Of a stretch of DNA of 64,000 nucleotides, positions 27,720 to 30,541 are shown piece by piece; position 1 is the stretch's first letter, and each line of letters opens with the position of its first letter. This DNA comes from Candidatus Dadabacteria bacterium (GTDB lineage Bacteria > Desulfobacterota_D > UBA1144 > Nemesobacterales > Nemesobacteraceae). The translations under genes were made by a program, and so were the position numbers. The DNA lies in contig JAJDTG010000020.1 in the NCBI GenBank assembly GCA_022827275.1, forward strand, positions 124,001 through 188,000, read 5' to 3'. The notes below the pieces were generated by a model. That model was not told where the DNA came from. It did no database searches and was given only the letters and a program-made list of their open reading frames with translations.

Positions 27720-29670
<1,951 letters not shown>

Positions 29671-29766: not shown

Positions 29767-29794
29767 TTGACAGTTTAAGTAAATTACTTATATT
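29767..29794 (+). promoter_or_regulatory. Strong promoter upstream of a small RNA candidate
   Basis: TTGACA (29767-29772), a 16-nt spacer and TATATT (29789-29794) in very AT-rich DNA. There is no start codon with a ribosome site between it and the terminator 60 nt later. Confidence 0.65.
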
Positions 29795-29799
29795 TTATA

Positions 29800-29893
29800 G
29801 CGTTGATTAGAAACATTGATCAATACTCATCCTTCATCCTCCTTATTTGTTTAGGAAGAGCGCCTCGGTCCCCCTGAGGCGCTCTTTTTTTTG
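29800..29893 (+). ncRNA. Candidate small RNA with anti-Shine-Dalgarno segment
   Basis: About 90 nt between a strong promoter and an 11-bp terminator. The middle is unstructured and pyrimidine-rich, with CATCCTCCTTA (29835-29845) complementary to the AAGGAGG ribosome sites used by genes here. No open frame is evident. The layout (promoter, single-stranded CU-rich region, strong hairpin, U run) is that of a trans-acting RNA. The alternative is an attenuated leader for the SCO1 gene, which starts 58 bp after the terminator. Confidence 0.5.
29856..29893 (+). terminator. Strong intrinsic terminator
   Basis: AAGAGCGCCTC (29856-29866) pairs perfectly with GAGGCGCTCTT (29876-29886), followed by a T run. 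The loop is 9 nt. Confidence 0.9.
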
Positions 29894-29950
29894 TCTAATC
29901 GAAAAGGTGGTGTATATTTTCTGCCCTGACCTGTTAAGGAGTTACTTCAA

Positions 29951-30541
29951 ATGAAACGGCACTACTTGCTTTTAACCGCTTTGGCGCTGATCGCTCTGGT
30001 GTGGATTGCGGTCCTCGGGTTTTTGCGCACTGACAAGGGAAGCTTCCACGGGGATGAGTATCGCAGGCCCGCCTTTGATTTCTCCCTGACCGACCACCGG
30101 AACCGGGAGTTCTCTCTTTCCGATCACTCGGGCAAGGTCATACTGCTTAACTTCGGGTTTACGAACTGTCCGGACGTATGCCCTACCACTCTGGGGATGC
30201 TCGGAGAGGTGCTCGATCTTGTGGGAGACGAGCGGGCCGAGGCACTTTTCATAACCGTTGACCCGAAGCGCGACACCGCGGCCAGGCTCGGGGCCTACAT
30301 TCCGTTTTTCCACGACCGCATAGTCGGCCTCACCGGTCCTGAGCAGGCTATAAAGCAGGTAAACGACGCCTGCGGAACATTTTACTCAAAGGAGCAGGGG
30401 GCGTCGGAATCAGACTACGGCGTGATTCATTCGCCCGCGGTTTACCTGATAGGTCCCGGCGGTGAGATGATGCTCCGCTATCCCAAGGAAAAGCTTGACC
30501 CGGAGAAAATCGCAGGCGACGTAAAACGCCTCCTTCTGTAA
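29951..30541 (+). CDS. SCO1/SenC copper chaperone
   Basis: A 196-residue membrane-anchored thioredoxin-fold protein. One N-terminal membrane helix (about 5-25) precedes the copper site CPDVCP in GFTNCPDVCPTTL (near residues 77-81), with the third ligand His in YGVIHSPAVYLI near 160. It delivers copper or keeps thiols reduced at the CuA site of cytochrome c oxidase, on the periplasmic side. AAGGAG precedes the ATG. It is followed after 6 bp by the PCu(A)C gene, a standard pairing. Confidence 0.95.
   Translation: MKRHYLLLTALALIALVWIAVLGFLRTDKGSFHGDEYRRPAFDFSLTDHRNREFSLSDHSGKVILLNFGFTNCPDVCPTTLGMLGEVLDLVGDERAEALFITVDPKRDTAARLGAYIPFFHDRIVGLTGPEQAIKQVNDACGTFYSKEQGASESDYGVIHSPAVYLIGPGGEMMLRYPKEKLDPEKIAGDVKRLLL

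Follow-up and report, generated by a model that had tools for sequence, protein, structure and literature searches.

An order-wide family of predicted anti-Shine–Dalgarno small RNAs in Dadabacteria and the operator that it shares with gspC

Between groEL and SCO1 in the window, the 64,000-nt stretch of Candidatus Dadabacteria DNA analysed here, a promoter and a terminator enclose a short segment with a central pyrimidine stretch that could pair with Shine–Dalgarno (SD) sequences. This raises the question of whether the segment is a small RNA (sRNA) gene and, if so, under what control the RNA would be made and which messages it would meet.

Gene structure and extent of the family

The consensus promoter and the terminator proposed in the initial annotation were both found (Table 1). 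The -35/-10 pair matches 11 of 12 consensus bases and could be aligned in all 14 genomes of the genus and in nearly all copies of the family, while the terminator is a stem-loop with a T-run whose stem comprises 13–16 pairs rather than the 11 bp first given. From these two signals, the RNA is predicted to start ~7 nt past the -10 element and to end at the terminator. Folded alone, it has a minimum free energy of -30.9 kcal/mol, compared with -16.1 +/- 3.0 kcal/mol in shuffled sequences (z = -5). The pyrimidine stretch, which had been expected to be free of the terminator stem, is indeed unpaired in this fold: the segment CAUCCUUCAUCCUCCUUA is placed between the 5' hairpin and the terminator, which lie on either side of the single-stranded stretch UACUCAUCCUUCAUCCUCCUUAUUUGU. 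CCUCCUU within the core is identical to the anti-SD sequence at the 3' end of the 16S rRNA of the same genome (GGATCACCTCCTTTTT). The groEL gene on one side of the sRNA has its own terminator.

Table 1. Features of the sRNA locus and its flanks (window positions)
Feature	Position	Strand	Description and basis
groEL	28030–29670		Flanking gene
Promoter, sigma70-type	29767–29794	+	-35 TTGACA 29767–29772; -10 TATATT 29789–29794; 16-nt spacer
Operator box 1	29775–29791	.	Inverted repeat TTAAGTAAATTACTTAT in the promoter spacer; family form TTAAG-N7-CTTTA
Predicted small RNA, ~93 nt	29801–29893	+	Promoter and terminator positions, fold, covariance-model match
5' hairpin	29802–29824	+	Arms GUUGAUUAG/UUGAUCAAU; folding, 59-copy alignment
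Invariant core, unpaired	29827–29844	+	UCAUCCUUCAUCCUCCUU; folding, order-wide search, alignment
Intrinsic terminator	29853–29892	+	GC-rich stem-loop (29853–29889) and U-run; covariation
Promoter-like site	29891–29918		TTGTCT-16-TATATT directly past the sRNA terminator; candidate own promoter of SCO1
SCO1	29951–30541		Flanking gene

The element is present in all 14 genomes of the genus, with 87–97% identity to the window copy in the 13 others. Genomes of other families retain the promoter and core but differ strongly in the terminator sequence. When the 18-mer TCATCCTYCATCCTCCTT was searched for across the phylum, sRNA copies with zero or one core mismatch turned up in 42 of the 44 genomes of the order, a recurrence well above chance, with the reversed-pattern control nearly empty. 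Copy number ranges from one to seven per genome across the order and is usually two to four outside the window genus. Side-by-side comparison of 79 copies showed that, in nearly all of them, a hairpin and then a T-rich tail come after the core. The 18-nt core is nearly invariant across the family, and the alignment showed that the conserved stretch reaches past the anti-SD sequence, through UCAUCCUYCAU. An RNAalifold consensus from an alignment of 59 copies contained the terminator only, and all 13 of its pairs feature two-sided changes that keep the pairing. The covariance model built from this alignment detected the family in every genome of the order (44 of 44), and it matched window positions 29801–29899 with an E-value of 9e-12. 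Promoter, CCUCCUU and covarying terminator, for which a search of related genomes had been suggested, are all conserved, and this conservation and covariation strongly support the original proposal that the locus encodes an sRNA whose anti-SD segment is left unpaired. Judged from sequence, the locus is very probably a genuine sRNA gene.

At its edges, the family becomes harder to recognise. Family f6 was matched weakly by the covariance model and its core has diverged to CCTCCTCCTCC; two copies of this version (L371 in G023 and L376 in G019) read AAGTTAGG...CTTAACT(T)CCTCCTCCTCC, followed by a terminator. A weak match in the 1-Mb family f8 (G051) was rejected, as it featured no recognisable promoter or terminator. 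Elsewhere among 387 genomes the model returned low, chance-like scores only, and the matches outside the phylum, which when read resembled chance combinations of antisense SD sequences or coding DNA with a terminator behind, were set aside. An Rfam search of the window and of L103, L112, L130 and L001 yielded only tRNA above the gathering threshold, and no small RNA of Dadabacteria was found described in the literature searched. At two loci upstream of a TrhO gene (L112 and L132), the sRNA occurs in tandem, with spacings of 352 and 273 bases between the copies. A separate repeated element, AAAGGAGGATTAAGGAGGATTT (one variant base), which occurs in G028 at L300:1489, L307:1533 and other places, is not a copy of the sRNA.

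The surroundings of the copies bear on two other ways of reading the element. The gene downstream is SCO1, TrhO (UPF0176) or a lipoprotein-like gene, with the SCO1 and UPF0176 domains confirmed by Pfam matches, while other copies face convergent genes that by eye include a bactofilin and an FxsA-like gene. Because the neighbours are unrelated and often convergent, instead of one gene always lying downstream in the same direction, the family is not an SCO1 leader, an outcome that the initial annotation had named as grounds for abandoning the sRNA. SCO1 does lie directly downstream in the same direction at 27 loci, and further copies precede TrhO or the lipoprotein-like gene, as would be expected of an attenuator in which regulated read-through of the terminator controls the next gene (SCO1 in the window). 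This reading is nevertheless very improbable given the many convergent copies and unrelated downstream genes, the compensated changes in the terminator, whose consensus shows no competing fold, and the promoter-like site that SCO1 has of its own. A short translated peptide is less credible still. The window copy has no ATG frame; a 24-codon TTG frame runs across its core and would be the basis for such a peptide. This frame has no SD sequence; 58 of 79 aligned copies lack any frame across the core, the remaining copies differ in frame and length, and small indels shift frames even inside the genus.

An operator shared with the type II secretion operon

Nearly all sRNA promoters follow the layout TTGACA-N2-TTAAG-N7-CTTTATTTT, in which the spacer holds box 1, an inverted repeat that seven gspC promoters have in common with almost every sRNA copy, while its flanks vary. 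Past the inferred start, nearly all copies feature TTAA and ACTTAA, termed box 2. In other families this TTAA...ACTTAA stretch occupies the place of the 5' hairpin and pairs weakly. The hairpin itself was seen in the window genus and in family f7 and is absent from the consensus structure, so it was rejected as a feature of the family RNA; it is not claimed family-wide because its bases coincide with box 2.

A search of 58 genomes with the first part of this pattern returned the sRNA copies and, repeatedly, another kind of site. All seven of the non-sRNA matches that were read proved to be the promoter of gspC, with about eight more matches lying outside this count. The seven gspC promoters contain both boxes, with the ATG directly after box 2. 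The type II secretion operon begins with gspC, whose product has T2SSC and PDZ Pfam matches, with one of two proteins scoring above the curated cut-off. One match in G018 that at first could be assigned neither to a known copy of the sRNA nor to gspC proved to be a variant copy. In the genome of the window, gspC is present with a promoter that lacks box 1, and a relaxed operator scan of this genome gave no further convincing site. Given the shared operator, a single regulator probably governs both the sRNA and the type II secretion operon in most genera. Four copies (L093, L094, L098 and L100) have an intact core and terminator but lack box 1, and are therefore probably under other control.

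Complements at gene starts and the case of pilQ

Places matching the complement of the core with at most two mismatches were examined, with sRNA genes excluded. The best of these fall at gene starts, in most cases those of genes for signal-peptide proteins: in 20 places the start codon lies 14 bases into the match, and 17 of these 20 genes encode a signal-peptide-like N-terminus according to a simple hydrophobicity rule (not SignalP). Because an SD sequence plus ATGA might itself favour signal-peptide genes, two permuted spacers with the same SD were run as a control, and only 5 of 17 genes were signal-peptide-like (Fisher p = 0.0009). The number of near-complement sites was discarded as evidence, since the permuted patterns gave 10 and 29 matches; real and permuted patterns differ only in the make-up of the matched genes. 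Within the genome of the window the effect points the same way but is modest, as the signal-peptide fraction among the top 25 predicted targets was 0.36 versus 0.18, a value equalled by the maximum of 30 half-shuffles. Long-gapped duplexes dominate the duplex-energy list for this genome, and no targets were named from it. A TonB receptor was rejected as a genus-wide target, as a strong complement was present in only four of 14 genomes, and is a plausible predicted target in part of the window genus. Overall, exported and outer-membrane proteins account for most of the mRNAs with long complements.

The best complement, an 18/18 match, is on pilQ of G018, whose product contains Secretin and AMIN domains. 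Half of the genomes of the order (22 of 44) were found to have pilQ (the type IV pilus secretin), none of them in the window genus. GGAGGATGG is present in the pilQ start region at 15 of 20 readable loci, compared with 2 of 53 other genes at the same loci (p = 1.2e-9), and AAGGAGGATGG, the exact complement of CCAUCCUCCUU, at 13 of 20 compared with 1 of 53 (p = 1.1e-8), both p-values being optimistic because the genomes are related and independence is overstated. This pattern is spread over several genera and families, and pilQ conserves the non-SD bases ATGG that match the core while the rest of the spacer varies. A lipoprotein-like gene near pilQ often has GGAGGATG too. The long complement is absent from pilQ of families f7, f2 and f4. 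On these comparisons, pilQ would be the best conserved and clearest predicted target. It cannot be the only one, because the window genus g1 and genus g10 retain the sRNA where pilQ was not found, while most other genera have pilQ; the invariance of the core over the 14 genomes of the window genus implies that some function persists there. The multicopy family, the operator shared with gspC, the complements at genes for exported proteins and the conserved predicted target pilQ all go beyond what had been annotated.

A real RNA might instead act generally, with no gene-specific targets, as a mimic of the 16S anti-SD that occupies strong SDs and so lowers translation broadly; this has some appeal given that CCUCCUU is identical to the 16S sequence, that the targets in the genome of the window are weak and that the core is conserved more than any single target. 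It is nonetheless unlikely, as conservation continues past the anti-SD through UCAUCCUYCAU, the matching non-SD bases ATGG are retained by pilQ, and spacers permuted behind the same SD yield fewer signal-peptide genes. More doubtful again is the idea that GGAGGATGG before pilQ marks the start of a mini-ORF overlapping the pilQ start, which would make the sRNA match secondary and leave other mRNAs as the targets. An inner ATG does open a frame of two or three codons that overlaps the pilQ start in several genomes, but GGAGG abuts this ATG with zero spacing, which is poor for initiation, the frame is still open at the pilQ start in G018, and the same motif recurs as the SD and spacer of further genes for exported proteins.

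Proposed mechanism and relation to known systems

We consider it likely that the locus represents one copy within an operator-controlled, Hfq-independent family of trans-acting sRNAs that extends across the order and blocks translation initiation. A regulator bound to the shared operator would set transcription of the sRNA, and the same operator before gspC would tie the sRNA and the type II secretion operon to this one regulator. The ~93-nt RNA would hold its C/U-rich stretch of 18–21 nt single-stranded between the 5' part and the terminator, where it could pair without Hfq to AAGGAGGATG-type sequences covering the SD, spacer and start codon, and the resulting duplex would keep 30S subunits off the target mRNAs. 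When the regulator calls for it, the sRNA would probably lower pilus and other envelope traffic. For the window genus, in which pilQ is absent and gspC lacks box 1, only this general mechanism is proposed. A more specific and more tentative suggestion, to which we give somewhat less than even weight, is that one regulator toggles two related secretin machines in this Hfq-less lineage: the operator would activate type II secretion together with several copies of the anti-SD RNA, which would in turn silence the type IV pilus secretin along with further exported proteins. The family as a whole would represent a natural case of SD-blocking RNAs gaining specificity without a chaperone. As specificity would lie in an invariant linear motif, targets could be read from sequence, and the link of type II secretion to type IV pili via one operator and one RNA is testable.

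An Hfq domain (PF17209) was found in none of the 44 genomes of the order by a search that was positive in E. coli, B. subtilis and others, which places the family outside the class of Hfq-dependent sRNAs. The long GC-rich pairing of 11–20 bases fits a chaperone-free mechanism. In the terms that define sRNAs generally, the locus has its own promoter and intrinsic terminator without a conserved ORF, and a conserved unpaired segment with a conserved mRNA complement via pilQ (15 of 20), the latter resting on the pilQ-bearing genomes and not on the window genus, which lacks pilQ. In enterobacteria, MicA and RybB are transcribed from sigmaE promoters and silence outer-membrane protein mRNAs by Hfq-dependent pairing. 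The Dadabacteria sRNA resembles them in its probable joint control with envelope genes and in having outer-membrane protein mRNAs among its predicted targets, and differs in its classical promoter, operator palindrome and lack of Hfq.

There is a functional likeness to the LhrC family of Listeria monocytogenes (LhrC1-5, Rli22 and Rli33-1), which has several copies under one envelope-stress regulator and a C/U-rich motif that acts against SDs of targets that are mostly surface proteins, with Hfq-independent pairing (PMC4132741, PMC8079631). The Dadabacteria sRNA likewise has multiple copies, which share one operator, and a C/U-rich anti-SD motif, with complements mostly in mRNAs of exported proteins. 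However, LhrC presents short UCCC motifs in loops and a linker, whereas the Dadabacteria sRNA has one invariant linear linker motif of 18–21 nt, and UCCC is absent from its core UCAUCCUYCAUCCUCCUU; the Dadabacteria also belong to another phylum, have no detected Hfq gene and share the operator with a secretion operon. In the alpha-r14 (NfeR1, or cuckoo) RNA family of alphaproteobacteria, CCUCCUCCC is borne by three hairpins (PMC10746234). The two families are alike in that an ultraconserved anti-SD motif is left unpaired while stem sequences differ (PMC10746234), but the Dadabacteria sRNA does not feature CCUCCUCCC in three hairpins; its motif, UCAUCCUYCAUCCUCCUUU, lies in a linker that has a weak 5' element on one side and the terminator on the other. 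With the defining motif of neither LhrC nor alpha-r14, this is a new family of a known general type.
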